Positions 11,137 to 39,290 of a DNA stretch of 64,000 bases are shown piece after piece. The translations under genes and the position numbers were made by a program. The notes under the pieces are model-generated. The model saw only the letters and a list, made by a program, of their open reading frames with translations, did no database searches and was not told the origin of the DNA. Location: NCBI GenBank assembly GCA_030041495.1, contig JASHNT010000095.1:1-64000 (forward strand). Direction: 5' to 3'. This DNA is from Bryobacteraceae bacterium. GTDB lineage: Bacteria > Acidobacteriota > Terriglobia > Bryobacterales > Bryobacteraceae. The first letter of the stretch is position 1. Every line of letters starts with the position of its first letter.

Positions 11137-12432
11137 ATGAGCAAGCAGTGGCTCGCTTGGTGGATCGTGCTGGGTCTGGGAGTAACCGCGGACGCCCAAA
11201 CGCAGGTCAGCTTGAAAACGCAAGCGAGGTCGGCAGACCTGTCCAACGTCGGTCCGACCAAACCAATGCAGACGGGAACCGCCCTGCCGGTGGCGTGCAC
11301 CACCGGTCAAATGTTCTTTCTGACCACGGCTCCCGCGGGGGCGAACCTGTACGCCTGCGCCGCGACAAACGTTTGGAGCGCGATCGTGGGCAGCGGGGGC
11401 GGCGGCGTCAACGTTGCGGCCGGATCCGGAATTGTGGTCACGCAGAGCGGATCAACAGACACGATCTCGACGGATCCCGCGGTCGTTCCGACCAAGTCCG
11501 TTGTGCAAGCGAGCACGTCAAACATCGTGACGCTGACTTCCGCGTCATCTTCGGCGCTGACCGGGACACAGAATCCGGCGCTGGCGGGCTACAGCGATAA
11601 ACAGTTGGTCGAACTCACCTGGAACGTGGCGTGCGCGGGCGGACCAATGACTCTGGCCGTCGACGGGCTGCCAGCCACAAGCCTGGTGAAAGCCGACGGA
11701 GCAACGGCGCTCTCCGCCGCGGATTGCACAAGCGGTCAGACTAATCTGTTCAGCTACGACGGCACGCTGGGGAAGTTCAAACTCCTGGGCGGAGGAGCCA
11801 TAACCGGGGGTGGTGGGAGTTCTGTCACCTTTGCTCCTCCTTACATCCAGAGCGGCGGCAATAACTACCTTCCGTTCGGATTTCAAGCTACGCTTCCGCC
11901 GACCAGCGGCTGGACCGCTTTGAACTTCAGCGGGGCAACGCTTGTCACCAGCGGAAGAGGGGGCGCGATTGCAATTACCAGTCCTCTTACCGGCAGCCTG
12001 AATTTGTACAGCCAGACCCTGCCGATAGGCTCCACCGCCACTTTGACCGGCGCCGTAGGCTTTCTGTCGGCTACCGGAGGGGGCGGCACTTATTGTGGTG
12101 TCGGTATCCAGAATCCGACCAGCGGGAATCTCTACACCATCGCGCAAGTGGTTGCCGGCGCCGCTGCTTTTGCGACTGCATCGCTGTTCAATTCCCCCAC
12201 CTCCAAGAATTTCGACACAGCGCAAGTCGAAAGTGTGGGCTCATTAACGCTCGTGAGGATGGCCTACTCCGGCGGCACCGCAACAGCCTATGTGAGCACC
12301 GACGGCGGCGCCAGTTGGTTTCAAGTCGATCAGCGAACCTCTCTCACCGGATATACGAACTGGGTGTTCACGTCCTCCGGATCTAGCGGCGGAAATTCCA
12401 ATTGCACACTTTACTCCTGGAGCGCGCAATGA
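11137..12432 (+). CDS. Secreted Gly/Ser/Thr-rich protein with tail-fibre-like segments
   Basis: A 431-residue protein with a signal peptide (MSKQWLAWWIVLGLGVTADA, cleavage near AQT). A good AAGGAG site precedes the ATG. The mature part is low in charge and rich in Gly, Ser, Thr and Ala, with glycine runs. The stretches CTTGQMFFLTTAPAG and GSGIVVTQSGSTDTIS resemble repeats I associate with phage tail/fibre-like acidobacterial proteins. The last third, with TGSLNLYSQ and STDGGASWFQVDQ, looks like a beta-sandwich. No catalytic motif is evident. Its stop overlaps the start of the large beta-helix gene (ATGA), so it is probably a partner in the same surface structure. No known family recognised. 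Confidence 0.7.
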   Translation: MSKQWLAWWIVLGLGVTADAQTQVSLKTQARSADLSNVGPTKPMQTGTALPVACTTGQMFFLTTAPAGANLYACAATNVWSAIVGSGGGGVNVAAGSGIVVTQSGSTDTISTDPAVVPTKSVVQASTSNIVTLTSASSSALTGTQNPALAGYSDKQLVELTWNVACAGGPMTLAVDGLPATSLVKADGATALSAADCTSGQTNLFSYDGTLGKFKLLGGGAITGGGGSSVTFAPPYIQSGGNNYLPFGFQATLPPTSGWTALNFSGATLVTSGRGGAIAITSPLTGSLNLYSQTLPIGSTATLTGAVGFLSATGGGGTYCGVGIQNPTSGNLYTIAQVVAGAAAFATASLFNSPTSKNFDTAQVESVGSLTLVRMAYSGGTATAYVSTDGGASWFQVDQRTSLTGYTNWVFTSSGSSGGNSNCTLYSWSAQ

Positions 12433-15400: not shown

Positions 15401-15575
15401 AGCTGTTTCCGCCCAATTCACGGCAACCGGGCTAGGGGGCTCACCTCTTACGGCGACTTGTTCAACGTCGCCTTGCGGGATTGCGGATGTTCCTAATGGC
15501 AACGTGTTCGTTGAGGTGCAGTACTTGAACGGCGCGGGCGGTACGGTATCAAGCGGGACCCTTGCCGCTCAATGA
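12429..15575 (+). CDS. Large secreted beta-helix-like protein, paralogue A
   Basis: A 1048-residue protein starting at the ATG coupled to the previous stop, with signal peptide MKRIFAAALSAALPLAAQ. Order as read: a fibronectin-III-like N-terminal module with a Gly-rich insertion; a segment with AGDAMQMVLNEVGYGAIIELDQG; a central region of about 450 residues rich in Asn, Gly, Ser and aromatics with N.F/NxxFxN rungs, typical of right-handed beta-helices; then a C-terminal module with APDSRSCAVDTSANG...YQYRLMCYY. The same order and motifs recur in the protein at 17117-20083. It could be a polysaccharide-acting enzyme or structural fibre; no lyase triad is identifiable by eye. Confidence 0.75.
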   Translation: MKRIFAAALSAALPLAAQTFSNMSVQSQDLDVHSATITGNVSPDGWVSLEYGVTSGGPYPFQTTTTCTASPEIVLSGGGGSGARAWALSLGSGGSAGLAFVSYGGSGYGSVPSVTVSDTCVPDGGAAGSGMTGAATISGGAVTSVVLSGGTGYHLANGATSGEYGPNQVSGVVRIAVGGLAAGTTYYIRPVFRPDPNSSTGQVVGSEFSFTTLNGTTAPVAPVAPATVWNPASPANFPSFTTGYTLVSMASSGGDCTAKNSVTGSYWSVTAGDAMQMVLNEVGYGAIIELDQGTICKIPSSLVYYTLPAKATDPAAAGINDPAHRYIVIRTKQTGSADFPPPGTRFDPAGDNGTWLAHLAQIQSQSPQGQSDDAPQVLRTDPGNCTAHHWFIYNVELSVAGVGNWGSAAQIGTDNDPIEEACEPPYMVFDRTYWHGPTRVANTTTMSGGLYGSPGAHFSLTNSVFDGYDTNNPQTFSVILSDCGAGPAMIDNNLFGAASGQGFYVQSDGVPYCGSAPASPSVQNNPTTYDDGTFTHNALYWNPTTLNSYSLWDGLSRLPARNQFEIKGGRRWSLSGNYFNGQWCAQTDGSPILLSATNVAAEYGESGVTDVAMSSNVFVNSAIVLNIQGTKGTSQTGPPDNSINRHFSFTNNIGWNLGKNLWHDANTCSGIGPGYFDFTDGPQDIDVENNTLADVSGDTGSNGGSYYPTWLEAGGGVSLTAGFTLKNNVWHMSGGGDSLYGILPDNEPGCAPLGDCANFPAVPNLDNSNNPASTLQSAYISNGTSGLVKSAFSWLGNIDIGGWYATNLTPWTQMTPTQINTLSANLPSGDTWISGSSIAARQANAGVAGIDSGNMNCWATPQNSCVAGASIQELESVLGIVTNVSVFAGASTLQFNYVAPDSRSCAVDTSANGTVWTRAVDGGGSRVRMLAVNGLNASSPYQYRLMCYYSQTAPWFSFPSELSNMVTDGATASTAAAGTRGLLLYFNLPPGAVSAQFTATGLGGSPLTATCSTSPCGIADVPNGNVFVEVQYLNGAGGTVSSGTLAAQ

Positions 15576-17037: not shown

Positions 17038-17116
17038 AAGGGCAAGCATTGACGGCGAGTGGTTGCTCTTAGGCGCGGATTCATCTCGCGTAGCCTAGTT
17101 TGGGATACTGGATGTG

Positions 17117-20083
17117 ATGCGCCTGACTCGCCGCCCGTTCTACGCGCTGACCGGGGCTGGCGCGGTGTGCTGCGCCCTGATCTGGGCTTGCGCGCTGTGC
17201 TGTGCTCAGACTCCAACCATCACGAACATCAGCATCGATTCGCTCGACACCAGCTCCTTACGCGTATTTTTTACGGTGTCCCAGCCGAGTTGGGTGGAGG
17301 TGTTCTATGGCACCCAATCCGGCATCTATCCCTACAACACGAAGAGCATCAATTGTTTCGATCTCAACTGTTCCTTTACGGCGGGGAAGACGGCGTTGGC
17401 GATCAGCGGCCTGAAACCGGGCACCACTTACTATGTGCTTCCGACGGCGCGCCCCGATCCGAATGACGACACCAACATCTGCAACGCGGCGGCGTGCGGC
17501 GCGGTGGAGCAGATGGTTACGACGGTGCCGGGGCCGGAGCCGTCGCCGGTTGCTGCCCCGCTTTCCTGGCAGCCGGCGGCTCCCGACACTTCCGGCTACA
17601 CGGTGGTGACGATGCAAGTGGGGCCGAGCAAAGAGTGCCAGGCCGCGGCGTCGGTCACCTCGCCTGACGGATGGTCGGTGAGCGCCGGAGACACGGTTCA
17701 GACAGTGCTCCAGGAAGTAAATTATGGGACGGTATTGGAATTTCCGCAGGGCGCGATGTGCCAGGTTCCGACGCCCAAGCCGCCTGCGGGCTCCGGCTAC
17801 ATTCTTCCGTCAAAACCGCCGGATCCGACGGCCTGTGGAGGCACCTGCGGGATGACGGATCCGCGGCATCGTTGGATTGTGCTTCGGACGCAGCAAGTCA
17901 ACTCGGGCGATTTTCCTCCTTTTGGATCACGCATCACGCCGGCGTGGTCCGCAAGGCTGGCGAAGTTCTACAGTTCGGCTCCCAACCTAGCCAGCCAGTT
18001 GTTCGACGCGGAGTCGGGCTCGGCAGGAGCCCACCATTTTTGGTTTCAGAACCTCGAATTTGAAGACGATCCGGCATACGTCAACCCCGCGGACGCGGTC
18101 GATCCGGTTGCTTTCACATTTTTCGCCCGTCTGGGATCCCAGTGGGACACCAGCAATAACCAATTCCTGGTGCTGGATCGAGTTTATGCTCACGGGCCCG
18201 GAGCGCCGGTCAGGCACTATCAGGGATACGAGCTGGGCGGCAACTACATCGCCATGATTGGCTGTTACACCAGTCATGTAGAGACCTGGCGGATGACGGC
18301 GTGGCCCTCCAACGCGGGGACATTGAGCGACAACAACACGGTCTTGAATATTCCGGTAAATAATTTCCGTTTCCAGGCTTCCTCACCGATGCTGGGAATG
18401 AGCTCTCCGGCGACCGCGACGCTGCTCAGCCGAGGCGGCCCAGGGACGGTGATCGGTAACCTGTATAAGGACCATCTTGAGATTCAGTATGCAGCCGCTA
18501 ACGGCCAAATCTCTTGCCAAGGTTGTAACGCCACGGCGGTGAGTTCTCCCTCCACGCCCTCGACCGCCCTAGCGTTATTTTCGGGCACCATTTCCAACGG
18601 TCAATTCAGCTCGATTAATTGGAACACGGCGGAGTGGCAGACCAGCCGGTACGCAATGGCGTTCGGCATTCAATTGTCGGATCTGAAGGCGCCAGGCGGT
18701 CCTTATGATTTCGACAACAACTACATCGATGGAGTGGGCGAGGGGTACTACGTCGATCCTCAATTTTCGAATTTCTCGAGCGACGATGTAACCTATGTTC
18801 GCAATCATCATATCTGGCCTAAGAATTATTTTGTGTCCGACCCGAACTGGATCGGCTGGAGGTATGAGGTCCGGCAGCACTGGGAGATCAAGCGCGGACA
18901 CCGGTACAACGTGGCTGGAAACGTCTTCTCGTATTCCTGGTCTTATCAGAATGATGGGCCTGCCCTTCTGCTGAGCGGGCGGCCCACGTATCAGGCGCAA
19001 ACGCTGAACGACGGCATCAGCGATATTAATGTAACCTCCAACATCGTCCGGCATGGGCGAACCGGCATCGCCTGCTCGGGCGGATCGCCGATGGACAACG
19101 GCGGCAACACGGTCGATGGCGAGATGGTACGCCGGGTCAGCATCACCAATAACCTGATGTATGACCTGGGCCGCTGGAAATATTGCGACCCGGTTAACTG
19201 CCCCTCCTTGGGTTCCTTCTATTTCGAGAACCGGCCGGGGTGCCAGGATCTGACCATCCGGAACAATACAGCTTCTCCGACCTACGGGGACATGCCGGCT
19301 TGGCTCTATGTCGGTGGCGGAGGGCTGCTATCCAACTATCTGGACTTTGAAAATAATGTACTATTCTTCTCCCAGGGTCCGGTGGCCGGGGGAACAGCTT
19401 GGGGAGACTGGCCGCCCAACAATGTTTCAGGGCACGACATTCAACCCTCCGTGAACTATAACAACGGTGGAAACGCGCCTCCTTTTGTCGCAACCTTGAA
19501 TTCAAGTTTTGTCCACACCGCGGCTCAGGTCACTCCGAATTACGTTTGGCAAGACAATATCGCGATCGGCGGGTGGACGGGCCAGCAAGGCTCGGTGGTT
19601 GACCTGACCGAAGCGCAGCTTAGCAGTTACGCGGCAAACGCTCCCTCTGCCGATACCTTCCCGTCCGGCAACTCGATGTGGAATAGGGCCGCGGCGGCGG
19701 GTTTTCCGGGAGCGCAAAACAACGATTTTACGCCCGCGGCCGGAATCACGGCAGGCGTGAATTATTCGCAGTTGACCGCGGAACAGGGCTTGACGACCGG
19801 TATTGCGCCGCCCGTTCCCAGCGAAACTACAGCGCTGTTCGCCTATACCGCGCCCGACGGCCGCGCTTGCGCGGTGGACGTGAGCGCGGACGGCTCGCTC
19901 TGGAATCGCACCATGGATCCAGGCGGCGCGCAAACACGCAGTGTAACGGTTAGCGGCCTGCGGGCATCCACGCAGTATCAGTACCGCGTCCTCTGTTACT
20001 ATGAGCAGGTAAACGATGGGGTTTTATACACGGACTATACTGCCGACCAGACGACCGACGGCAGCTTCATGACGCTACCCTAG
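17117..20083 (+). CDS. Large secreted beta-helix-like protein, paralogue B
   Basis: A 988-residue protein with an N-terminal hydrophobic signal segment. The order matches the protein at 12429: an N-terminal beta module with LKPGTTYYVLPTARPDPN; AGDTVQTVLQEVNYGTVLEF; DPRHRWIVLRTQQ...GDFPPFGSRI; an Asn/Gly-rich middle with NNTVLNI, DFDNNYIDGVGEGYY, NVAGNVFSYSW and ITNNLMYDLG rungs; and a C-terminal APDGRACAVDVSADGSLW...YQYRVLCYY module. Paired Cys residues suggest disulfides outside the cytoplasm. I prefer the ATG at 17117 over the GTG at 17114 because a GATACT hexamer lies 7 bp upstream of it. Function unknown. Confidence 0.75.
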   Translation: MRLTRRPFYALTGAGAVCCALIWACALCCAQTPTITNISIDSLDTSSLRVFFTVSQPSWVEVFYGTQSGIYPYNTKSINCFDLNCSFTAGKTALAISGLKPGTTYYVLPTARPDPNDDTNICNAAACGAVEQMVTTVPGPEPSPVAAPLSWQPAAPDTSGYTVVTMQVGPSKECQAAASVTSPDGWSVSAGDTVQTVLQEVNYGTVLEFPQGAMCQVPTPKPPAGSGYILPSKPPDPTACGGTCGMTDPRHRWIVLRTQQVNSGDFPPFGSRITPAWSARLAKFYSSAPNLASQLFDAESGSAGAHHFWFQNLEFEDDPAYVNPADAVDPVAFTFFARLGSQWDTSNNQFLVLDRVYAHGPGAPVRHYQGYELGGNYIAMIGCYTSHVETWRMTAWPSNAGTLSDNNTVLNIPVNNFRFQASSPMLGMSSPATATLLSRGGPGTVIGNLYKDHLEIQYAAANGQISCQGCNATAVSSPSTPSTALALFSGTISNGQFSSINWNTAEWQTSRYAMAFGIQLSDLKAPGGPYDFDNNYIDGVGEGYYVDPQFSNFSSDDVTYVRNHHIWPKNYFVSDPNWIGWRYEVRQHWEIKRGHRYNVAGNVFSYSWSYQNDGPALLLSGRPTYQAQTLNDGISDINVTSNIVRHGRTGIACSGGSPMDNGGNTVDGEMVRRVSITNNLMYDLGRWKYCDPVNCPSLGSFYFENRPGCQDLTIRNNTASPTYGDMPAWLYVGGGGLLSNYLDFENNVLFFSQGPVAGGTAWGDWPPNNVSGHDIQPSVNYNNGGNAPPFVATLNSSFVHTAAQVTPNYVWQDNIAIGGWTGQQGSVVDLTEAQLSSYAANAPSADTFPSGNSMWNRAAAAGFPGAQNNDFTPAAGITAGVNYSQLTAEQGLTTGIAPPVPSETTALFAYTAPDGRACAVDVSADGSLWNRTMDPGGAQTRSVTVSGLRASTQYQYRVLCYYEQVNDGVLYTDYTADQTTDGSFMTLP

Positions 20084-27909: not shown

Positions 27910-29187
27910 TCAAGGCTGAGGGACGGGCCCGGCTTGCGCCATCGCCTTCTCGGTCTTGAGGAAGAAACGGATGCTGGCGGCGGCGGAAAAGACGTCCATC
28001 AGCGTGGTCGACAAGGCGATGGAGCGCACCATCGGCATGAAGAGCGCCAGCCCGAAAACCGATACGAAATTCAGCACCAGCGTCTGGAGAATGATTCTGG
28101 ACCATGCCTTCTCGTACCCGAAAGCCAGCATGTAGTAAGTTCCGAAGCACATGCTGACCGCGTGGATAAACGGGGTCATACTCATCAGCCGCAACAAAGT
28201 GGCTGTCTCCGCGAATTTCGCGCTGTAGAGAATCTGCACTACCAGCGGGGCGAAGATCAGCAATCCCAGGCTGATCAGGAGAAACGGCGCGGCGGTCCAC
28301 AGAAGCCGCCGCGTGAGGAAAGTAACGGCTTCGCGCCGGGAACGCGAGGCGAGCTGGCTCATATGCGGGTAGATCGCGCTGGCAACCGGGTTCGAAAGCG
28401 CCCGTCCCGCAACGATTAGCCGTGAGCCGGCGTTGAGATACCCGACCTGGTCCGGGGTGCTCGCCATGCCGAGGATCATCGTGTTGCTGGAGCTCATTAC
28501 GTTGCCGCTGGCGAAGGAGAGAAACACCGGCCAGCCCTCGATCATGTATTCGCGCATCTCCCGCAGCGAGGGAACGACCAGCCGCATCCGCAATTGGACG
28601 GCGGCGATCGACAGGCCCAAAACGGCGGCGATGACGTAAGCTCCAGATTGCACCGCCGCAGCCAGCAGGTAGTCCGAGCTGTGCCGCACCAGGACAAAGA
28701 TCAAGGCGACGGAAACGATTTTGCCTCCGTAGTCGGAAATGGCCACCAGCCGCATCCGTTGCATCCCTTGCAGCAGCCAGTTGGGAGACAGGCACCATCC
28801 CACCGGCTGGAGATAACTGACCAGATACAGCACCCAGTGCTCGCGCAACTTGGGGACCACGGCGATCAAGCCCAGCATGAATACAAAGCACAAGGCGGCC
28901 AGCGTCAGCTTACACGCCATGACGTTGCTGTACACGCGCCAGACTTTTTCCGGTTCCTGCTGAAGAATCGCGACGCGGCGTGTGCCGGTGACGGCGAATC
29001 CGTATTCAGTAACCACGGCGAAGTACAGCACCAGCGCGGTCCCCAGGGCAAGCAGGCCGAAGTTGGATGGGCCCAGGACCCGCGTGAGATACGGCAACGT
29101 AATCATGGGCAGCACGTAGGCGCTAATCTGCACGCCGCCAAGGATCATCGAATCCTGGACTAGCTTGTGCTTTAGCAATCGAATCAA
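27910..29187 (-). CDS. Wzx-like oligosaccharide flippase (MOP superfamily)
   Basis: A 425-residue protein with about twelve hydrophobic segments, beginning with the PST-type MIRLLKHKLVQDSMILGGVQISAYVLPM and ALGTALVLYFAVVTEYGFAVTGTRRVA, typical of Wzx translocases that flip undecaprenyl-linked repeat units. The start appears to be TTG at 29187 with AGGAG 10 bp upstream. It is the last gene of the long leftward operon and follows the hexapeptide acyltransferase by 81 bp. Together with the initiating transferase and the Wzy_C protein it gives the core of a Wzx/Wzy-type export route. Confidence 0.88.
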   Translation of the reverse strand: MIRLLKHKLVQDSMILGGVQISAYVLPMITLPYLTRVLGPSNFGLLALGTALVLYFAVVTEYGFAVTGTRRVAILQQEPEKVWRVYSNVMACKLTLAALCFVFMLGLIAVVPKLREHWVLYLVSYLQPVGWCLSPNWLLQGMQRMRLVAISDYGGKIVSVALIFVLVRHSSDYLLAAAVQSGAYVIAAVLGLSIAAVQLRMRLVVPSLREMREYMIEGWPVFLSFASGNVMSSSNTMILGMASTPDQVGYLNAGSRLIVAGRALSNPVASAIYPHMSQLASRSRREAVTFLTRRLLWTAAPFLLISLGLLIFAPLVVQILYSAKFAETATLLRLMSMTPFIHAVSMCFGTYYMLAFGYEKAWSRIILQTLVLNFVSVFGLALFMPMVRSIALSTTLMDVFSAAASIRFFLKTEKAMAQAGPVPQP

Positions 29188-29268: not shown

Positions 29269-29997
29269 CTAATCGCCGGCCCTCGACTTCTTGTCGATAT
29301 TGCGGAAGAACACCTCCGCGGGGTTACCCATGGCAATGCAATAGGGAGGGATGTCGGAAACCACCACACTGTTGGCGCCGATGATCGCGCCCTCTCCGAT
29401 GGTGACGCCCTTCATGATGTGCGTGCATGCACCGATCCAGGCGTAGCGGCCGATATGCACGGGTTTGACTTCGTCGGTCGCGGGCGGGAGGTGCTGCGCG
29501 CGCTTCACAGCGTCGCGGGGATGGCCGTCGGTGTCCGAAATCCGGCAGGACGGCGCAATCAAAACGTCTTCATCGATCACCACTTCGCGGTTCGCCACCA
29601 AGGTCGAATGCCATCCGATCACGGTGCGATCGCCGATAGCCACGCGCGGGCGATCGAAACTGCGGCCGGAAAGTATGCCGACCTCTCCGCCGATTGACAC
29701 GTCGTCGCCGAGGAAGATCTCCACGGGGCCCGCAACGAAGGGGAGCCCTTCCAGGGAAAGATTCCGGCCGACCGACTTGCAGCGCGATTGAAACAGCGGA
29801 TGGTAGTAAAAGATCGCGACCAGCCGGCGGCAGGAAGTGATCACCAGATAGTGTCCGTGATAAAAGATCCTGCCGATTGGTTTGATCCAGGAAGGAATGC
29901 GCGGGCCGGAAGGACGCATTAGCGCGGCGCCCATGCGCTTTAAGCGCCGATAGCCGGGGGTCTCCGCGCGCCTGATTTTGCTCAGAAAATCGTTCAA
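29269..29997 (-). CDS. Left-handed beta-helix (hexapeptide) acyltransferase
   Basis: A 242-residue protein, probable TTG start. Residues from about 75 carry hexapeptide rungs (I/L/V-G-x4) such as VEIFLGDDVSIGGEVGIL, VAIGDRTVIGWHSTLV and VHIGRYAWIGACTHIMKGVTIGEGAIIGANSVV, ending with the typical GNPAEVF. These are CoA- or ACP-dependent O- or N-acyltransferases. The N-terminal 75 residues, basic with one hydrophobic patch, may bind membrane. It follows the KAS III-like gene by 60 bp, so it is a candidate to use an acyl group loaded on the neighbouring ACP. Confidence 0.85.
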   Translation of the reverse strand: MNDFLSKIRRAETPGYRRLKRMGAALMRPSGPRIPSWIKPIGRIFYHGHYLVITSCRRLVAIFYYHPLFQSRCKSVGRNLSLEGLPFVAGPVEIFLGDDVSIGGEVGILSGRSFDRPRVAIGDRTVIGWHSTLVANREVVIDEDVLIAPSCRISDTDGHPRDAVKRAQHLPPATDEVKPVHIGRYAWIGACTHIMKGVTIGEGAIIGANSVVVSDIPPYCIAMGNPAEVFFRNIDKKSRAGD

Positions 29998-30057
29998 ATC
30001 CGCCTCACGCCGAACTTGATCCCCATCGTACCCCGAAACCGGACTTCAAGAATGCGA

Positions 30058-31080
30058 TTAAGCAGCCTGCCAGCGCAGAATGGTGGCTCCCCACGAATAT
30101 CCGACGCCAAAACCGGCCAGCATCACGCGCGAACCGTCGCGGATCCGGCCTTTCCGCATGGCGTCATCCAGCGCGATAGGAATGGTGCACGAAACCGTGT
30201 TGCCGTGCTGCTCCACGCAGATGTGAAACTTGGCTTCCGGAATTCGAATGGACCGGCGCAGATGCTCCAGCATCTGGCGATTCGCCTGATGGAAGATCAC
30301 CAGATCGATGTCGTCCCATCCGAGCGCAGCCTTCTCCATGATGTCGCGGACCAGGCGAGGCACGACGCGCATGGTGAAGGCGAAGATTTCCATGCCGCTC
30401 ATGTACAGATGATCGGCGCTGCGGATGTTGCCGCTCTCATCGGTGGTCTCCACCGAGGTTTCCGCGGAATGGGGTGTGCGGAAAGCGCCGGCCGCCACGA
30501 TGAGGTTGGGGCCGCCCTCGCCGTCAGTCCCGTACACGTAGGGGCCCTGAATCGATCCACCGGGCCCCTCCCGCGGGATCCACGTCGCGGTCGCGCCATC
30601 GCCGAAAATCGTGCGCACGCTGCGGTCCCGCGGATGCAACAGCTTACTATACGTGTCCGCGGTTAGGAAAAGTACATTCGAGGCTTGCCCGGTATCGATC
30701 AAGGCCTGCGCCAGCCCCAGCCCGTAAATATAGCCGGAGCTGCCCAAGTTGAAATCGAAGCTGCCCATGTTCCGGGGCAAACCGAGGCGGTGTTGCAGCA
30801 GGCAGGCTGTCGGCGGAAGAAAATAATCCGGAGTCTGGGTGCAGAAGAGAAGAAAGTCGATTTCCTCGCGCCGGCAGACTCCCGAAGCAAAGAGCTTTTC
30901 CGCAGCGGCCACGGCAAGGTCTGAGGCGCACTGATCCGGAGCGGCGATCCGGCGCTCCCGGATTCCTGTATTACGGTCGATTTTCTCTACTTCCCAGGCC
31001 GGATATTCCTGTGAAAGTTTTTCGGTACTGAGAACGTCTTCCGGGAACGCACACTCAATCGCGCGAAGAATCGCGGTCAT
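30058..31080 (-). CDS. KAS III (FabH)-like protein with Ser replacing the catalytic Cys
   Basis: A 340-residue thiolase-fold protein of normal FabH length. Where FabH has the nucleophilic Cys in C-[AS]-G-F, this protein reads FDFNLGSSGYIYG, placing Ser at 114 (codon AGC, one base from TGC). The other active-site residues are kept: H264 in IFHQANRQ and N294 in EQHGNTVS. Known KAS III-like proteins with Ser (DpsC) act as acyl-selecting or acyl-transferring enzymes. Its start overlaps the stop of the ACP gene (ATGA), so the two are coupled. In this EPS operon a role in acylating a sugar is more likely than fatty acid synthesis; that is inference. Confidence 0.85.
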   Translation of the reverse strand: MTAILRAIECAFPEDVLSTEKLSQEYPAWEVEKIDRNTGIRERRIAAPDQCASDLAVAAAEKLFASGVCRREEIDFLLFCTQTPDYFLPPTACLLQHRLGLPRNMGSFDFNLGSSGYIYGLGLAQALIDTGQASNVLFLTADTYSKLLHPRDRSVRTIFGDGATATWIPREGPGGSIQGPYVYGTDGEGGPNLIVAAGAFRTPHSAETSVETTDESGNIRSADHLYMSGMEIFAFTMRVVPRLVRDIMEKAALGWDDIDLVIFHQANRQMLEHLRRSIRIPEAKFHICVEQHGNTVSCTIPIALDDAMRKGRIRDGSRVMLAGFGVGYSWGATILRWQAA

Positions 31081-31301
31081 GCCGGTTGCGTGAGTTGGTA
31101 GAGATCATGGACGGTCTGGCATCCGGCGATCTTGCGGGGCGACAGTTGCACACCGCATCTTTCCTCGACAACGGACATCAGCGTGACCATGGCGACGGAG
31201 TCCCAGTGCTCCAAATCTTCCAGTTTGGAGCCCTCCTGAAGCGATCCGCCCGGCACCTCCAAGACTTGCTCAAAAGCCAGGATGAACTCCTCGCGGCTCA
31301 T
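31077..31301 (-). CDS. Acyl carrier protein (dedicated, EPS-locus type)
   Basis: A 74-residue acidic protein of typical ACP size. The phosphopantetheine attachment site is S35 in LEHWDSVAMVTLM, with the preceding Asp conserved. It starts MSREEFILAFEQVLEV. It immediately precedes and overlaps the Ser-type KAS III gene, so they very probably work together. It is not next to fabD, fabG or fabF and so is unlikely to be the housekeeping ACP. A TATACT hexamer 7 bp upstream suggests a leaderless transcript; GAGG in the gap is too close for an ordinary ribosome site. Confidence 0.88.
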   Translation of the reverse strand: MSREEFILAFEQVLEVPGGSLQEGSKLEDLEHWDSVAMVTLMSVVEERCGVQLSPRKIAGCQTVHDLYQLTQPA

Positions 31302-31348: not shown

Positions 31349-33133
31349 CTATAGAGCCTTCTTCAGCGAGAGCGCGTGAAGCCGGTTTCCCAACTTCTCT
31401 CGCGCCGCGGTTAAGCCGTCCGGGTTGTTGTAGAACGTCAGTACGTTCTGAATGAAATCGTGGGAGACTTCAACGGCGAAGCTGGCTTCTCCCGCCTTGT
31501 CGAGAGCGTGGAGATACTCGTAGTCCTCCATGCCGTCGCGAATGAGCTTCAGCCGGATGCTGGCAACAGGTACCGGACGGCTTCCGCCAATCTTGTCCAC
31601 GGTTCCGGGGTAGAACAGAGCTCCGTCGCCGTCGCCGCCGAAGGCGTACAAATGATCCCAGGGATCGCTGCCCCAGAGATCGGTTTGGTAGTACAGCTCG
31701 CCCTGAATGTGTTCCAGGTAGGCGAGCCACTGGAAAATACGGTTCCGCACGGGCGATGCATCGATCATATAGGACGGCCAGGTGGACGACTTCGGTCCGG
31801 AATAACCGTTGCCACAACTCTCGTGCTGGTTACAGGATTGATACCACCACAACTCTTTTCCTGGAAGCATCAGCCAAGTGTCGTATTTGGATCGCTGATC
31901 GCCGTGGTCCTTCGGAAAAAGTTCGTTCAATACCACTGCCAGAATGTCCAGGTTGTTCAGTACCTTTTCCCGGCGTGCGAAATCGATATTGGTGGTGACT
32001 AGGTTCCGCATGGCCGGCGCCGCGGCACGGAAGGCAGCGGCTTTTTGCGCAAGGCGGGCCCAACTGCACCCGTTGGGAGGCTCGTCACAAACGTAGTCGA
32101 ATAGCGCCGGCAGCCAGCCTTTCTTCTGGAAATGGGTCACGTAGTCGCGGATGTCTCCCGGGTCGTCCTTGCCATAGTTGGGATATTGGAAAGCCGTGAG
32201 CCGCGCGCCTTTTAATTTTGTATCGGCGGAGCCGCTCAGCAGCGGGCCATAGACGCGATCGAACCTCGTCCAGTCGCCGTGAGGCGAAGTCGGCGGGACC
32301 GCAACCGCGGAGATGGAGACTCGATGATCGAGAAAGAACTTCGCGACCTCTGCATGCGCCAGCGCGAGGCCGAGTTCCGAATCGCCGTAGGCTCCAGGGA
32401 AATTGCCCGCGCCCGCGTAGTTCTTATACGCCGCGAATGCCAGCGAGCCGTAGCTCACGCCGAAGGCGCTCTTGAGCGTCGCAGTGGATGGAAGTTCAAA
32501 ATTCCAGACCTTGAGTAGCACCGGAAGGCGCGCCAGTGTGGCCGTCCCGTCTAGGACCGTCACCGTTCCCAAATAGTATCCCGAAGCCGTCTGAGGCGGC
32601 ACGAATACATCGATCCAGGCGCTGCGCGTCTGTCCCGGAGGCACCGTTACGGGAAAGGCGCTCCGGCGCTCGTGAAAGATCGAATCGCGAACCGGAATAA
32701 GGGCGTCCGGAATCAGGCCGGCAGTTCCGTTGAGATCGGAGACTTGTTTCACGTTCGAATAGGATTCTCGGAAGACTTCGATATTGGTGCCGGCCTGGAC
32801 GCGCCGTCCAGAAGGCCCGGTCAAATCGCTCACCACGACTTCGAGCCGGATGGAGTGATCCATCGCGCGCACGTGCACCTGGAAGCTTTCGAATTCGTTG
32901 CGCGCCGCCGAAATTTCCGCCCAGTGCACGGGTCCCGGCATCGCGTCTGGCTGCACCTTTGCTAGCGATCCGGTGATCCAAATGTTCGACGGATAGTCGT
33001 CGGCATTGGTGGAAATCGCGGGGCGGAGCGAAGCGGCTAGAGGGTCGGCCGTCTGCGCGGGAGACAGCGGGGGGATGAGAAGAACTGTCCCCAACAAGAC
33101 CGTTGTCGCCCGAACAGCCCTGGTTTCTTTCAA
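31349..33133 (-). CDS. Secreted DUF4091 protein (GH123-like)
   Basis: A 594-residue protein with signal peptide and cleavage after LSPAQT (about residue 28). A TTG start with AGGAGC 5 bp upstream is the only reasonable one. The N-terminal beta-domain contains VHWAEISAARNEFESFQVHV, and the C-terminal half has ELWWYQSCNQHESC, ELYYQTDLWGSDPWDHLYAFGGDGDGALFYPG and IRLKLIRDGMEDYEYL, the hallmark of DUF4091, related to beta-N-acetylgalactosaminidases of GH123. It is probably a periplasmic or extracellular glycosidase trimming the polymer made here. It precedes the ACP gene and follows a heparinase-like gene. Confidence 0.82.
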   Translation of the reverse strand: MKETRAVRATTVLLGTVLLIPPLSPAQTADPLAASLRPAISTNADDYPSNIWITGSLAKVQPDAMPGPVHWAEISAARNEFESFQVHVRAMDHSIRLEVVVSDLTGPSGRRVQAGTNIEVFRESYSNVKQVSDLNGTAGLIPDALIPVRDSIFHERRSAFPVTVPPGQTRSAWIDVFVPPQTASGYYLGTVTVLDGTATLARLPVLLKVWNFELPSTATLKSAFGVSYGSLAFAAYKNYAGAGNFPGAYGDSELGLALAHAEVAKFFLDHRVSISAVAVPPTSPHGDWTRFDRVYGPLLSGSADTKLKGARLTAFQYPNYGKDDPGDIRDYVTHFQKKGWLPALFDYVCDEPPNGCSWARLAQKAAAFRAAAPAMRNLVTTNIDFARREKVLNNLDILAVVLNELFPKDHGDQRSKYDTWLMLPGKELWWYQSCNQHESCGNGYSGPKSSTWPSYMIDASPVRNRIFQWLAYLEHIQGELYYQTDLWGSDPWDHLYAFGGDGDGALFYPGTVDKIGGSRPVPVASIRLKLIRDGMEDYEYLHALDKAGEASFAVEVSHDFIQNVLTFYNNPDGLTAAREKLGNRLHALSLKKAL

Positions 33134-33172: not shown

Positions 33173-35023
33173 TCACAGACGTAGCTCGCGTTCGCCGAAT
33201 GTGAGCCGGCCGGGTTCAATCCGCAGGCCGGCGGTGGTGGCGCGCGAATCGAATACCGCCGCCAAGCGGCAGGGTAACTCCGCCTCGACGGTGATGCATA
33301 GCACTGGGTGGGCCAGTTTCAGACCGGGAACGGGCGAATGCCAGCCCTCTTCCATCGAGATCACCTGGCCGCCAGAGACATGCATTCGCAGGCCGCCCGG
33401 AAGCAGAATGGACCCGTCGGGAAGCCGTTCGACGGTTCCCGCGACGTGCCAGAACTGCTCGATTCGATGGCGGCCGTTGCCGGAGACGTCATCCACGACC
33501 CAGATGGCGCCGACGGAGAAAGAGATGCGGCGCTCGTGCCGAATGCCGCGCGCCTCGCAGAAGGCGTGCAGACCCCACGGCTGCGCGGACCAATCGAGAA
33601 TCTCCGCCGCAGGCAGATTCAACCAACGGAACGGACCTGCCGGATCAGCCTGATCCAAGCCGTCAATACGGATTGTGTTGTGCGCCGCTGTGCCGCGGAA
33701 GCGCTGGCGCCAGGATGGGTCCGAGACGTAGGTGTAGGTTCCGGGATCGAGGAGCACGTTTTCTCCGCGGTGACGCAAAGTGAAATGGAGCGAATGGCCG
33801 TGGCTGTGGCCCGCGCTGCCCCTTCCGAAGGCCCGCACGGAGGCGATCAATTCGAAGTTATCTTCGGCCAACACCACTGTCCCGGTCGAGCGGAAACATT
33901 CGGAAACGCGTACCGCGCGATCGCGCGTGACAGTACGGTCCCCCAGCCACCAGACGGCGATTTCGTCGAGATCCTCCGGCGCGCCGCAACTCGGAGTATC
34001 GCCCAGGAACGCGGCGCAAGCAGCCAGAGTCGCTCGGGCGAACTGCTTGCGCTCGCCAAAGGGATGGAACAGACGGCCGCCGTCGTCGTCGCCAAAGAAC
34101 GGCAAGCTGCCGGAGCCCGCTAATGCCCACAGATACCGGGCCATCAGCTTCAATTTTTCCCGATACTCCGCACCGGGATCTTCGAGCACGGCATGGAACA
34201 GAAACATGTCGGTTGCGTAGACGTGGTAGTAACTGGACTGCTCGAAATGACCACCGTCGGAATGCACGTGATCGCGAATCATTTCCCGCATCAGGGATGA
34301 GCCGTTCTTGCGCCAGCGTTCGACTCCGAACAGAAGTCCGAGAGCGTGCAAAGCCAGAGCCTCGCCTTGCAGGTGCGTGTTGGGAGAAAAATACACGGAG
34401 AGATTTCGTTCCAGGTAACAGCCGTGGTGAAACAAAGAGAGCTGCCAGCGTGAAGCCAGCTCCGGCGGCATGCGATGGCCCGATAGACGATGGATCCAAA
34501 TCCAGGAAAGCGCGCGGAAGGCGACCTCCAGCGCGCTAGTCCAGTTGATCCCGCGGCATACCGGGTTCTGATCGAGCCAGGACGCAAGTTGCGCGAACGC
34601 CGCATCCGCAAATTCGCCACGGCCACTCAAGAGGCTGGCCTGCGCCAGCGCGACCAGATGCTGGTGCCGGTTCAGCTCCCAAATAATCTTGTGGTCGCCA
34701 GAGCGCGAAAAATCGAGGTACGGGATGCGGCGAAAGTAAACCGGCGGCGTTTCGCGGCCGTGGATGGAGTCGCGCCGCCAGTGAATCTCGCCGCTGCATT
34801 CGAGCTCATAGCCGAGCAATGGGATTGTGCCGGCCAGAATTTTCTCGGCGATGCCGATGAGCTGAGCGGCGTATGCGGAGCCGCGGAGCCGGGCCGCTAC
34901 GATTCGAGGATCCGGAAGCGGTAGAGGCGAAACCTCCGGCGACTTCCGGGGCGGATTCAAGTACAACGACAAGTTTCCGGCCTCTTGTTTAAACCGGAAT
35001 GAGATCTCCGGGAGGGAACGCAT
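33173..35023 (-). CDS. Heparinase II/III-family protein (alginate-lyase-like)
   Basis: A 616-residue protein. The N-terminal alpha-toroid part includes LSGHRMPPELASRW and YFSPNTHLQGEALALHALGLLFG with GGHFEQSSYYHVYATDMFLFH around 225-300, where the catalytic Asn/His/Tyr residues of this family lie. The C-terminal beta-sandwich has SAGHSHGHSLHFTLRHRGENVLLDPGTYTY and FRGTAAHNTIRIDG. Such proteins accompany EPS operons and cleave uronate-containing polymers, which fits the AlgD-type dehydrogenase. No signal peptide is evident in the reading used. The neighbouring GT2 stop lies 3 bp before its ATG. Confidence 0.85.
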   Translation of the reverse strand: MRSLPEISFRFKQEAGNLSLYLNPPRKSPEVSPLPLPDPRIVAARLRGSAYAAQLIGIAEKILAGTIPLLGYELECSGEIHWRRDSIHGRETPPVYFRRIPYLDFSRSGDHKIIWELNRHQHLVALAQASLLSGRGEFADAAFAQLASWLDQNPVCRGINWTSALEVAFRALSWIWIHRLSGHRMPPELASRWQLSLFHHGCYLERNLSVYFSPNTHLQGEALALHALGLLFGVERWRKNGSSLMREMIRDHVHSDGGHFEQSSYYHVYATDMFLFHAVLEDPGAEYREKLKLMARYLWALAGSGSLPFFGDDDGGRLFHPFGERKQFARATLAACAAFLGDTPSCGAPEDLDEIAVWWLGDRTVTRDRAVRVSECFRSTGTVVLAEDNFELIASVRAFGRGSAGHSHGHSLHFTLRHRGENVLLDPGTYTYVSDPSWRQRFRGTAAHNTIRIDGLDQADPAGPFRWLNLPAAEILDWSAQPWGLHAFCEARGIRHERRISFSVGAIWVVDDVSGNGRHRIEQFWHVAGTVERLPDGSILLPGGLRMHVSGGQVISMEEGWHSPVPGLKLAHPVLCITVEAELPCRLAAVFDSRATTAGLRIEPGRLTFGERELRL

Positions 35024-35026
35024 CGG

Positions 35027-36151
35027 CTAAGACGCCTTGGCCCTCCATAGCTTCTGCGGCCGAACAAAGAAATACGAAAGCGCGCAAAGCGCGGCCAGCA
35101 TCAGAACGGAAAAGGTTCGCGACAGCGACGAGATTTTCTTGAGCACGGAGCGGGAGGGTAGGAAAGGATCAATTGCCGCCAGAGCGTAGAAAGCGCCCTG
35201 TCCGGCGAGAAGGATGCCTGCCCATGGCGGGGGCATCCAGGGACTTGCGCAAGCGATGGCGAGGAGGGCGAAGGGCAGCATCAAGCGTCCCATTTTATGC
35301 GACAGGAAATGGATCCACAGCGGATTCCCGGGCCAGAGCAGTTTCGGGAATGCGGCCAAGATCTGGTAGTTGCCGGCCAAGGTCCGAACCTTGCGATAAA
35401 ATTCCGCATCCAGTGCGGCGGGGGAGTCGTAGGCCAACGCCCGCTCCTCCAGGACGATGTGGTATCCCCGGAATACCGCAGCCAAAGGAAGGTACATATC
35501 GTCCAGCAGAGTCTCCGGCGGAAGCGGAACCGCGAGGTCCCTGCGCATCGCGTATAAGGCTCCCGTGGCGCTTTCCATGGAACCGAGCTTACTGAGTTGC
35601 TTCCGAATCCACAGCTCATAACGCCAATACAAGCCGACGTTGGTCTTACCCTCCTGCTCGCCGGATCCCATAGCCAGCTCGCCGCTGACGACACCCACTG
35701 CCGGATCGGCCAGGCATTCAGTGAGGTAGCCGAGGCTACCTGGACGAATCGGCTGGCGCACGTCGGTAAAGACCAGCACATCTCCGGCGGCTTGAGCAAT
35801 GCCGGCATTGATCGCCGCCGCTTTGCCGCCGCGTGGCACGCGAATGAGAGTCACGCCTCGCGATGCGTACGATTCAGCGATGCTATCGGTCGCGTCCGTC
35901 GAGCCGTCCGAGATTACCAGCACGGCGAGTTTATCGCTCGGATATCCAGCAGCGAGGAGAGAATCGAGTTTCGCTCGCAGGAATGCCTCGCCGTTGTGCA
36001 CGGCCAGAATCACCGACACGGACGGAGTATAAGGCCCGCGGCGGATGGGGCGAGGAAACAAGCGCGCCACCACGGCGAGCAGGAGCGGATATCCCAGCAA
36101 TACATACAACATGACCAGGGCGCCGGCGATTGCCGTGATCACAGCGGTCAT
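35027..36151 (-). CDS. GT2 glycosyltransferase (membrane, processive-like)
   Basis: A 374-residue protein starting at the ATG at 36151, which overlaps the preceding GT4 stop as ATGA. The open frame continues upstream, but that part is antisense-like noise inside the GT4 gene. One N-terminal membrane segment (MTAVITAIAGALVMLYVLLGYP) is followed by PSVSVILAVHNGEAFL, VISDGSTDATD and VFTDVRQPI (the DxD-like site), then MESATGALYAMRR, and three membrane segments at the C-terminus. This topology matches HAS/BcsA-like and EpsH-type GT2 enzymes in XrtA-type EPS loci. Confidence 0.88.
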   Translation of the reverse strand: MTAVITAIAGALVMLYVLLGYPLLLAVVARLFPRPIRRGPYTPSVSVILAVHNGEAFLRAKLDSLLAAGYPSDKLAVLVISDGSTDATDSIAESYASRGVTLIRVPRGGKAAAINAGIAQAAGDVLVFTDVRQPIRPGSLGYLTECLADPAVGVVSGELAMGSGEQEGKTNVGLYWRYELWIRKQLSKLGSMESATGALYAMRRDLAVPLPPETLLDDMYLPLAAVFRGYHIVLEERALAYDSPAALDAEFYRKVRTLAGNYQILAAFPKLLWPGNPLWIHFLSHKMGRLMLPFALLAIACASPWMPPPWAGILLAGQGAFYALAAIDPFLPSRSVLKKISSLSRTFSVLMLAALCALSYFFVRPQKLWRAKAS

Positions 36152-37347
36152 GCGGCGAGGGCGTAGCGGGACAGGATCTGCTCCATCCCCAAGGCGACTT
36201 GGTCCCAACCGAATCGCTCTTTCACCAGCCTCTGCGCGGCTTCGGCTTGGCGGCGGCTCTGTTCCGCATCGCTCAACAGGCCGGCACACGCCTGTGCGAA
36301 TGCTTCCGGCGTGTCCGCGAGCAGGATGTGGTCTCCGGGTTGGACGGCGAGGCCCTCCGCGCCAATTGTGGTCGAGACGACCGGCACGCCGGCGGCCATC
36401 GATTCGTAAATCTTGAGTCGTGTCCCGCCCCCGACGCGCAGAGGGACCACGGAAATGGCGCTGTTCCACAAATACGGGCGGATGTCGGGTATTGTGCCGG
36501 TGACCTGAATGCGGCTGTCGGACTTTACCAAATGCCGAATTGCGGGAGCGGGATCGCGTCCGGCGATGATCAGCTCACAGGAAGGATGCGTGCGGCGGAT
36601 GAGCGGCAGGATGGATTCGACGAAGAAGCGCACTCCGTCGATATTCGGCAGCCAGTCCATCGAACCCACAAAAACGATCCCGGAGCGCGGCGAAGCGCCG
36701 GGAGGAGCGAAGAAGTCGGCATCCACTCCCGTAGGTACTTCGCTGACCGGGCCCTCCAAACCGAAAAGCTTTCGGAACTGGCAGGCGTCTTCCGCTGACA
36801 CCGCGATCACGTGGCGGACTTTGCGGCACACCTCGCGCTCATAGGCCAACATCCGGTTGGCTTGCTGCCGGAGATAAGCGCGAGCCACCGGGTTGCGCGC
36901 GGTATCGGCATGCCTGCGCCAAATCGCTGTCTCCACGTTGTGCTGGAACAGAACACACGCGCCGAGATCGGGCACGTTGGGCGCCGTCGCCAGAAAATCG
37001 CACACGATGCTGTCGAAGCGGGTTTCGTGCGTCAGCTCCGCGATCTTTGCGCGCATGGCGGGTGAGACGTAGCGCCGCTGCGAAACCGGCAACGGGTCGG
37101 CCAAGCCCCGCAAAAGCTGTCCTGCGAATCTGAGGGAGCGCCGAGGGGGAGGGGAATGCGGAACGGCGTAAGCTCGGGAGGAGTACTCAGTGCTGCGTGC
37201 GACTCCTTCTCCTGAGGGATCGTTAGAAAACGCCACATAAACGACTTCATTGCGAGCGTGTAGGCGCCGCAGCATCTCCAGCGTGCGAATTTGTCCTCCT
37301 CGCGTAGTCGGGTGCAGGAAGTCGGTCTTGATCCAGAGGATCTTCAT
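36148..37347 (-). CDS. GT4-family glycosyltransferase
   Basis: A 399-residue GT-B enzyme starting at the ATG at 37347, where MKILWIKTDFLHPTTRGGQIRT begins. The further 12 codons upstream lie in the amidotransferase gene. GIVFVGSMDWLPNIDGVRFF marks the donor domain near 221-240, followed by ISVVPLRVGGGTRLKIYESMAAGVPVV near 311-337. It resembles the glycosyltransferases found with XrtA/PEP-CTERM EPS loci. ATGA overlaps on both sides couple it to the amidotransferase and the GT2. Confidence 0.88.
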   Translation of the reverse strand: MKILWIKTDFLHPTTRGGQIRTLEMLRRLHARNEVVYVAFSNDPSGEGVARSTEYSSRAYAVPHSPPPRRSLRFAGQLLRGLADPLPVSQRRYVSPAMRAKIAELTHETRFDSIVCDFLATAPNVPDLGACVLFQHNVETAIWRRHADTARNPVARAYLRQQANRMLAYEREVCRKVRHVIAVSAEDACQFRKLFGLEGPVSEVPTGVDADFFAPPGASPRSGIVFVGSMDWLPNIDGVRFFVESILPLIRRTHPSCELIIAGRDPAPAIRHLVKSDSRIQVTGTIPDIRPYLWNSAISVVPLRVGGGTRLKIYESMAAGVPVVSTTIGAEGLAVQPGDHILLADTPEAFAQACAGLLSDAEQSRRQAEAAQRLVKERFGWDQVALGMEQILSRYALAA

Positions 37348-39290
37348 GCGGGGAGCCCGAGTGAGGGAACATCGGCCATCCAACGATCCCTGCGCCCGGT
37401 CAGAAACAGGTCTCCCCAGATCTGAAGATTCAACAGCCGCCAGATGCGATCGGTGGCGTCCACCGATCCGCTGGTGTGCCGTGCCAGCAGCGCCTCCACC
37501 TGCCGCATATCCAGCACCGACGCGAGAAGGCCGTCATGGTCCGAAAGCGTCTTGAGCAGCGGAGCCGCACTGGGCTGGCTGAGCCACGCGCGCAACGGTG
37601 TCGGGAAACCCATTTTCGTTCGGGTGAGGACTTCGGCGGGTATCAGGTCTCCCACGGCTTGTCTCAAGACGTACTTCCCGGTGCTCCCGTGGAGCTTCAA
37701 TTCATCCGGTATGCGCGCGGCAAATTCAACCAGAGTGTGATCCAGGAACGGCACGCGGCTCTCGATAGAGCAGGCCATGCTCATTTGATCCTGTTTCATC
37801 AACAGCTCCACCAGGTAGGTTTTTTGGTCCGCGTACAGCATGCGGTGGAGGAGCGGCGAATCCCCGCGCCGATTCCAATAATCCATGTAGCCGGCGTAAG
37901 GCGAAGCGTCCGAAGCGCCGAGCAGCGCGCCAATCTCAGACTGAGAAAATGCGCCGTAGAAATTGTCGAGATACAGGGACTCGGTGGTGAGCTCGCGCCC
38001 CAGAATACTGTGTCCGAGCTTCCGGCGCAGCGTGGAAGACAGGAGATTGTTGGTCTCGATGGCCGCCCGGATCTTGCTCCGCACAAAAGCCGGAACGCCG
38101 CAGCGATATGCGTTCGCCCAGGGTTGGTTCAGCAGGTTCCACCGGTAGCGGTGATAGCCGGCGAACAACTCGTCGCTGCCCTCTCCGCTCAGGACTACCT
38201 TGACGTGCTGCGAAGCAAGCCGTGAGACGAAATACAGGGAGACGCTGGACGGCCAGGCGATCGGCTCATCCTCGTGCCAGACCAGGCGCGGCAGCTCGTG
38301 GAAAAACTCGTCGCGAGACAAGGTGATTTCGTGGTGCTCGGTGCCGATGGCTCGGGCACCGGCGGCGGCGTAGCCGAGCTCGCTGTATTGCCGTTCCGCG
38401 TAGCCCACCGCGAAAGTCTTGACGGGTCCGCTGGTCATGCGGCGCATCAGAGCGGCCATCACCGTGGAATCCACGCCGCCACTTAGGAACATACCGAGCG
38501 GAACGTCGCTCATCAGCCGCATCCGGACGGTTTCTTCGATGCGTCGGCGGGTTTCTCGAATCCATTCTTTCGCGGCTAGTTTGGGCCGGCGGCCAGGTTC
38601 CGGAGCGGGCACATTCCAGTAGGATTCGATTTGTAAAGATGGACGCTCAGCCCGCGTGTCCAAAGTCAGCGTGTGGCCCGGCATGAGTTTGCGAATGCCC
38701 GCAAACATGGTCTGGTCGCCGGTGGTGAAGCCGAGAGACAAGCACTCGGGAAGCTGCACCGGATCCAGGCGGGCCGGAATCGAGGGATGCTCCAGAAGCG
38801 CCTTGATTTCGGAAGCGAACGCGAACAGCGTGCCGTCCCAATAGTAGTAGAAGGGCTTAATTCCCAGCCGGTCGCGCACGCAGAAAAGAGTTTGGCGCGC
38901 GCTGTCCCAGATGGCGTACGCAAACATCCCGCGATAAAGCTCGACCGAGCGTGCACCGTGTTGTTCGTAGGCGTGCAGAATGGTCTCGGTATCGCAATCG
39001 GTGGCATAGCGATGGCCAGCGCGTTCCAGGTCCGGGCGCAGGCTGGCGTGGTTGAAGATCTCGCCGTTGTAAATCGCCCATTTGGTCCCGTCTTCGTTCG
39101 ACATGGGCTGGTGGCCGCGGGAAAGATCGATGATGCTGAGACGCCGGTGGCCGAGAAAAGCCCGGTCTCCGTCTGCATAGTATCCGCTGTCGTCCGGCCC
39201 CCGATGCTGAAGGGCTTCGGTCATGCGCCGCAGAACGGATGCACTGCCATGCAGCGGCTTCAGCGTGACAAAGCCAGCGATACCGCACAT
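37344..39290 (-). CDS. asnB: Asparagine synthase (glutamine-hydrolysing)-type amidotransferase
   Basis: A 648-residue protein starting at MCGIAGF, which puts the class II glutaminase nucleophile at C2 after Met removal; the in-frame extension to 39386 would bury it and is rejected. The glutaminase domain has RGPDDSGYY and HRRLSIIDL. The synthetase domain has the ATP/PPi loop MFLSGGVDSTVMAAL near 263-277 and FAVGYAERQYSELGYAA. In EPS loci such proteins (WbpS-like, XrtA-associated) probably amidate sugar acids, which fits an AlgD-derived uronate. First gene of the leftward operon. A TACACT hexamer lies 9 bp upstream. Confidence 0.9.
   Translation of the reverse strand: MCGIAGFVTLKPLHGSASVLRRMTEALQHRGPDDSGYYADGDRAFLGHRRLSIIDLSRGHQPMSNEDGTKWAIYNGEIFNHASLRPDLERAGHRYATDCDTETILHAYEQHGARSVELYRGMFAYAIWDSARQTLFCVRDRLGIKPFYYYWDGTLFAFASEIKALLEHPSIPARLDPVQLPECLSLGFTTGDQTMFAGIRKLMPGHTLTLDTRAERPSLQIESYWNVPAPEPGRRPKLAAKEWIRETRRRIEETVRMRLMSDVPLGMFLSGGVDSTVMAALMRRMTSGPVKTFAVGYAERQYSELGYAAAGARAIGTEHHEITLSRDEFFHELPRLVWHEDEPIAWPSSVSLYFVSRLASQHVKVVLSGEGSDELFAGYHRYRWNLLNQPWANAYRCGVPAFVRSKIRAAIETNNLLSSTLRRKLGHSILGRELTTESLYLDNFYGAFSQSEIGALLGASDASPYAGYMDYWNRRGDSPLLHRMLYADQKTYLVELLMKQDQMSMACSIESRVPFLDHTLVEFAARIPDELKLHGSTGKYVLRQAVGDLIPAEVLTRTKMGFPTPLRAWLSQPSAAPLLKTLSDHDGLLASVLDMRQVEALLARHTSGSVDATDRIWRLLNLQIWGDLFLTGRRDRWMADVPSLGLPA

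Follow-up and report, generated by a model that had tools for sequence, protein, structure and literature searches.

A 64,000-nucleotide stretch of DNA from a soil acidobacterium of the family Bryobacteraceae (contig JASHNT010000095.1, positions 1 to 64,000; hereafter the window) carries, among genes that appear to serve exopolysaccharide (EPS) synthesis, three adjacent genes for an acyl carrier protein (ACP), a FabH-like homologue of ketoacyl-ACP synthase III (KAS III) and a hexapeptide acyltransferase (Table 1). The ACP and KAS III genes share the four bases ATGA (31077–31080), which end the former and start the latter, and the acyltransferase gene begins 60 bp past the KAS III stop codon on the same strand. 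This arrangement had been proposed in a sequence-only reading of the DNA, and the coordinates together with family scans confirm it. The KAS III homologue is recognized by two Pfam models (ACP_syn_III_C, 4.6e-33; ACP_syn_III, 7.4e-19) and can be aligned over nearly its full length with solved FabH-type enzymes.

The feature that sets this protein apart is the loss of the nucleophilic Cys. Alignment against three solved KAS III enzymes places Ser114 (codon AGC, 30739–30741, reverse strand) at the nucleophile position and shows that His264 and Asn294 are retained, just as the sequence-only reading had claimed. The motif NLGSSGY of the window protein corresponds to NLGCSGY in 3gwa, which is the closest solved structure (52% identical). 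An AlphaFold model of the window protein (pLDDT 94.6, pTM 0.93) superimposes on this Cys enzyme with a root mean square deviation of 0.9 Å and a TM score of 0.98. By the features that characterize FabH-type enzymes, the protein has a predicted KAS III/thiolase fold and the catalytic His and Asn, but not the catalytic Cys; it thus shares its overall structure with 3gwa/3gwe, which carry Cys instead.

Table 1. Features of the module and its surroundings in the window, with the support for each assignment.
Feature	Position	Strand	Support
Wzx-type polysaccharide flippase	27910–29187	−	Polysacc_synt 3.6e-48; same strand as module
Hexapeptide acyltransferase, 242 aa, TTG start	29269–29997	−	Hexapep 9.4e-14
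KAS III (FabH-like) homologue, 340 aa	30058–31080	−	Pfam/NCBIfam, PDB alignment, AlphaFold model
Asn294 codon (catalytic Asn, kept)	30199–30201	−	Asn in 69/70 aligned rows, gap in the remaining one
His264 codon (catalytic His, kept)	30289–30291	−	His in 70/70 aligned rows
ACP, 74 aa, carrier Ser in W-D-S	31077–31301	−	PP-binding 9.3e-8
GH123-like protein, upstream of ACP (context)	31349–33133	−	GH123_cat 5.1e-11
Heparinase II/III-like protein (EPS context)	33173–35023	−	Hepar_II_III_C 2e-31
GT2 glycosyltransferase (EPS context)	35027–36469	−	Start codon uncertain; reading frame overlaps next gene
GT4 glycosyltransferase, nearest PEP-CTERM/XrtA type (EPS context)	36148–37383	−	TIGR03087 2.5e-71, below cut-off

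Among relatives of this protein, Cys at residue 114 is the rule. A broad scan covering one genome per species returned at least 568 relatives, and the best 80 of these comprise 79 with Cys and one with Ser, the latter (locus L032) residing on the same contig as the Ser gene of genome G019. Within the family, a scan of 237 Bryobacteraceae genomes (match threshold E ≤ 1e-90) yielded KAS III matches at 38 places in 33 genomes; besides the window, the 37 further places, lying in 36 regions, were compared. Residue 114 is Cys at 31 of the 38 places, Ser at five and His at two. The Ser codons are AGC in the window, AGT in G019, TCA in G064, TCT in G062 and TCG in G136 (AGY in two genomes, TCN in three), and the His codons are CAC in G108 and CAT in G107. 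Sequencing error or chance can be dismissed as an explanation, because the five Ser and two His genes come from separate genomes, use different codons and all have intact reading frames; the TAG in the G107 and G108 genes is simply their terminal stop codon. The loci with His at the nucleophile position (L163 in G108 and L166 in G107) are the only such cases seen.

The closest orthologue found, which is 65% identical and comes from G067, has Cys and is accompanied by an ACP, an acyltransferase and a reductase. The expectation that Ser114 would be conserved in ACP-linked orthologues is therefore not borne out: most of them, G067 included, have Cys, although the link to an ACP holds. An order-level scan of 257 genomes (E ≤ 1e-105) added no genomes to those from the family scan, and a phylum-level sample of 396 genomes (E ≤ 1e-85) gave two matches besides the genome of the window, both with Cys.

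Of the 37 family loci, 32 (25 Cys and seven Cys-less) entered a maximum-likelihood tree in which residue 114 was masked. This tree requires four changes at the residue, at least three of which are forced by well-supported branches. A quick tree of 71 rows likewise requires four. The Ser proteins fall into three groups (the window with G019, G064 with G062, and G136 on its own), and the His proteins of G108 and G107 form another. The sister of the window and G019 is the Cys protein of G067 (support 100/98), and G136 is in turn the sister of these three (support 91/80). Approximately unbiased (AU) topology tests disfavour a single origin of the five Ser rows (p-AU 0.0165) and likewise of all seven Cys-less rows (p-AU 0.0279), two groups that were set by the residue itself, as well as a grouping of the window, G019 and G136 (p-AU 0.009) that was picked after the quick tree. 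These tests argue against the Ser variant being a single lineage. The branch that holds G136, the window, G019 and G067 can be explained by two gains of Ser or by a single gain with a later reversion to Cys, and two gains are favoured there because the codons differ (TCG in G136 versus AGY in the window and G019). As judged from this tree, Cys has probably been lost three or four times in the KAS III genes of Bryobacteraceae.

The Cys-less genes nonetheless bear the marks of constraint. Ratios of nonsynonymous to synonymous substitution rates (dN/dS, NG86 method), obtained for eight of ten pairs, are roughly 0.07–0.15 in three Cys-less pairs and 0.06–0.13 in five Cys pairs, where dS is close to saturation, so that no more than the low level of the ratios is used. 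The low values in Cys-less pairs exclude decaying pseudogenes. Furthermore, His264, Gln265 and Asn267 are constant in all 70 aligned rows. Low dN/dS, intact frames and invariant His and Asn residues together indicate that the Cys-less genes are maintained, and that the residues that would act on malonyl-ACP are maintained strictly. Deviations were also counted at the 58 to 61 near-invariant sites besides residue 114, which were chosen for their invariance among Cys rows other than the row under test. Departures number 1, 3, 5, 6, 2, 6 and 6 in the seven Cys-less rows and 0–2 in the 29 Cys rows of the family (Mann–Whitney p 1.6e-5, a value that ignores kinship and is favoured by the choice of sites). 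The recurrently altered sites are K37, Q82, K146, A266 and V326. Among these, K37, which we take to align with the coenzyme A (CoA)-binding Arg of FabH, is altered in four of the seven rows, and V326 presumably aligns with the oxyanion-hole Gly of FabH.

The partners of the KAS III gene are likewise retained. A hidden Markov model built from six ACPs and run on 117 loci, duplicates included, detected an ACP in 104 of them, and the carrier Ser is kept in all 13 ACPs compared. In every one of the seven Cys-less loci the ACP gene directly adjoins the KAS III gene (from a four-base overlap to a gap of less than 30 bp), and a close homologue of the window acyltransferase lies beside the pair. The view that the three genes form a real, recurrent module is thus upheld.

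What the Cys-less loci lack is a dedicated reductase, which is found at none of the seven and nowhere in the window. By comparison, 16 of the tree's 25 Cys loci have one (Fisher p 0.0068 versus 0 of 7, kinship ignored). Across whole genomes, the dedicated reductase (at least 51% identity to the query) occurs in G094, G063, G064, G247 and G067 and is absent from the Cys-less genomes G000, G019, G062, G136, G107 and G108, whose best-scoring matches are 32–35% identical (31–36% when the Cys genomes G013, G020, G017 and G018, which also lack it, are counted in); in the genome of the window, one of these six, the best-scoring match is 35% identical. The only one of the seven genomes with a Cys-less module that also encodes this enzyme is G064, which carries a Ser module without a reductase and, elsewhere, two Cys modules that each have one. 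Loss of the reductase seems to accompany loss of the Cys without by itself being its cause, and the association is not proven. The Flavobacterium loci within L055–L093, together with L035, L104 and L111, have a second, different Cys KAS III with an ACP and a short-chain dehydrogenase/reductase (SDR) nearby, as if longer chains were built there.

The acyltransferase of the window is LacA-like and similar to polysialate and galactoside O-acetyltransferases, with both hexapeptide repeats and the His motif SD-x-DGHP present. Of 17 homologues compared, 16 retain the His of this motif, which we take to be the catalytic residue. In the Cys module L146 the acyltransferase motif reads DGYP rather than DGHP, so the motif His is missing there. 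Homologues at E ≤ 1e-40 occur in 38 of the 237 Bryobacteraceae genomes, and 37 loci, covering 38 of 42 places, were examined for neighbours within 4.5 kb. A KAS III gene is present in 19 of these loci (in two cases a more distant Cys KAS III, 41–42% identical), FkbH with a different ACP in nine (L210, L211, L215, L216, L218, L222, L224, L225 and L227), and an ACP with a reductase near a contig end in one. None of the 37 has KAS III and FkbH together.

FkbH is a glyceryl-ACP-forming family, and the six of the nine FkbH proteins that were checked against NCBIfam all match TIGR01686 above its cut-off. Modules of this type may add glyceroyl decorations to glycans. One of them (L218, 6284–6688) has an open reading frame resembling methylmalonyl-CoA epimerase or glyoxalase (below cut-off) between the ACP and the acyltransferase. 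From these neighbourhoods, the loading units beside the acyltransferase family look exchangeable. Because an ACP adjoins the acyltransferase with two kinds of loading enzyme, the acyltransferase would draw its acyl group from the ACP. We consider it likely that the three genes serve ACP-dependent acylation of a sugar in the EPS.

Family matches identify the surroundings of the module as an EPS region, with the flippase, the GT2 and GT4 glycosyltransferases and the PEP-CTERM/XrtA-like, heparinase-like and GH123-like proteins. For an amidotransferase in the window the nearest model is likewise of the PEP-CTERM/XrtA type, with a score below the curated cut-off. No VioA-type amino-sugar aminotransferase was found among the subset of window reading frames that was scanned. 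Farther away (8232–11020), a protein resembling Wzy or O-antigen ligase lies beside an acyltransferase-3 family protein, which is a second possible glycan acylation gene, and two very large reading frames (12402–15575 and 17114–20083; 1057 and 989 aa) have no Pfam matches or only matches below cut-off.

Modules of this kind that keep the Cys are already known. The viosamine island of Pseudomonas syringae has genes for a KAS III (vioS), an ACP (acp), a reductase (vioR) and an acyltransferase (vioB) and yields N-(3-hydroxy-1-oxobutyl)viosamine, and the flagellin glycan of a vioR mutant consists of rhamnose only (PMC3927599). Similarly, plasmid pBGF3 of Burkholderia glumae has annotated KAS III, ACP, SDR and acetyltransferase genes after the flagellin genes and vioA, and its KAS III, which is 54.8% identical to that of the window, has Cys (DVNLGCSGYVYG). 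The viosamine-type set shares with the window a KAS III and ACP gene pair and an acyltransferase in a glycan locus; it differs in having a reductase and in targeting an amino sugar on flagellin, whereas the window lacks a dedicated reductase and has an EPS setting. The sequence-only reading knew of no described EPS system built in this manner, which is too strong: the Cys form is described, although both known sets serve flagellin glycans. No description of the Cys-less form was found in the open-access PubMed Central (PMC) literature, in searches partly aimed elsewhere. The same literature yielded nothing on EPS, KAS III and ACP combined. Acinetobacter QhbA is predicted to add acetyl or 3-hydroxybutyryl groups in capsules, and the part of the source available names no KAS III or ACP there.

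Some ketosynthases in which the Cys is replaced (KSQ) act as decarboxylases. We tentatively favour the idea, at somewhat less than even likelihood, that the Cys-less KAS III no longer condenses and would instead decarboxylate malonyl-ACP to acetyl-ACP within a module for ACP-dependent acylation of the EPS. Where the Cys is present, KAS III is expected to join a starter to malonyl-ACP, after which the reductase would turn the product into 3-hydroxyacyl-ACP for use by the acyltransferase. The window form would then be a collapsed module in which reductase and nucleophile are gone and His264 and Asn294 are left to act on malonyl-ACP. The malonyl group on the dedicated ACP would be decarboxylated, and the acyltransferase would spend the resulting acetyl-ACP on acetylating an EPS sugar.

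The proposed flow from malonyl-ACP through acetyl-ACP to a sugar acetyltransferase resembles that of MadA/MadB, which convert malonyl-ACP to acetyl-ACP, the donor preferred by the sugar acetyltransferase GlmU; the authors of that work allow for another family making acetyl-ACP elsewhere (PMC8666670). A hot-dog fold characterizes the Mad enzymes, which are apparently confined to Proteobacteria, whereas the window protein has a KAS III fold in its predicted model and is for this reason not a Mad family member. The Mad domain (YiiD_C, PF09500) was detected in none of the seven genomes with Cys-less modules, with a positive Escherichia coli control.

In line with the sequence-only reading, Ser114 could be a working nucleophile: KAS III would be self-acylated from acyl-CoA and pass the group to the ACP without condensation, in the manner of DpsC, and the acyltransferase would attach it to the sugar. 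DpsC, a KAS III with Ser at the nucleophile, self-acylates and transfers through Ser118, in a Ser118-His297-Asp302 triad (PMC12664062), and it has the fold, the Ser and an ACP partner in common with the window protein. The presence of Ser in five of the seven Cys-less genes, with two or three origins, and of an adjacent ACP at all seven loci also fits. However, DpsC combines Ser-His-Asp with a polyketide context, whereas the window has Ser-His-Asn in an EPS context (the DpsC triad being compared by description). Asn294 is kept, and an H-x4-D pair is found neither anywhere in the window KAS III nor within 50 residues of the catalytic His in any Cys-less row, so the comparison with DpsC fails and membership of that group is rejected. 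K37, the presumed CoA-binding position, is altered in four of the seven rows. Two relatives from another origin have His at residue 114, which means that acyl-Ser cannot account for every case. CerJ and ChlB3 share the KAS III fold and transfer acyl groups, CerJ to a sugar hydroxyl, but they use Cys-His-Asp; CerJ C116S is inactive (PMC9573744), so acyl transfer need not survive in a Cys-less KAS III. Nothing on FabH C112S was found in the open-access PMC literature. We regard a Ser nucleophile as unlikely, and a non-catalytic role, in which KAS III docks with or regulates the ACP or the acyltransferase while a housekeeping pathway supplies acyl-ACP, as slightly more so. The replacement of the nucleophile by two kinds of residue, the added changes at near-invariant sites and the missing reductase would suit such a pseudoenzyme, but His264, Gln265, Asn267 and Asn294 are kept in all seven rows and dN/dS is similar to that of Cys pairs. 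Slow residual condensation, through Ser or non-covalently, would deliver a 3-oxoacyl (acetoacetyl) group unless a generic FabG reduced the product. The predicted fold and the His and Asn are those of condensing KAS III enzymes, and SDRs are abundant in the genome of the window (19 matches), yet Cys is kept in 79 of the best 80 relatives, and for P. syringae it is assumed that an acetoacetyl group does not reach the glycan once the reductase is lost (PMC3927599), which makes residual condensation improbable.

Several observations weigh against decarboxylation by the Cys-less enzymes and against the history that we propose for them. Allowing for kinship leaves three independent pairs for the reductase comparison, with the same direction or no difference (p 0.25). 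Reductase loss is not sufficient for loss of the Cys, which is kept without a dedicated reductase in G013, G020, G017 and G018; 9 of the 25 Cys loci have no local reductase, and reduction of the product could fall to generic cellular enzymes of the FabG type. Neither loading unit lies within 4.5 kb in 8 of the 37 acyltransferase loci, one of which is on a short contig. One of the four changes on the tree (the G067 row) is possibly a return to Cys and not a separate loss, and the extra changes at the otherwise fixed K37, V326 and A266 might reflect a loosened constraint on activity. The donor role of acyl-ACP, the decarboxylation, its acetyl product and the EPS target are all inferred.

These genes amount to an experiment that nature has run more than once: the condensing enzyme loses its nucleophile, yet its other catalytic residues and its partners stay. 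The loss of Cys may alter the acyl group delivered by the three-gene set, and the neighbourhoods suggest that EPS decoration can change by swapping the acyl-ACP loading unit beside one acyltransferase family. A broader picture, which we hold to be doubtful as a whole, is that KAS III of EPS acylation modules has been converted repeatedly to a malonyl-ACP decarboxylase by joint loss of nucleophile and partner reductase, supplying a sugar acetyltransferase with acetyl-ACP in bacteria where no Mad enzyme was detected, with acyl-ACP factories swapped like cassettes. The Cys-less module also suggests, in a form open to testing, where bacteria that lack Mad might obtain acetyl-ACP for their envelope sugars; PMC8666670 had raised such a possibility.

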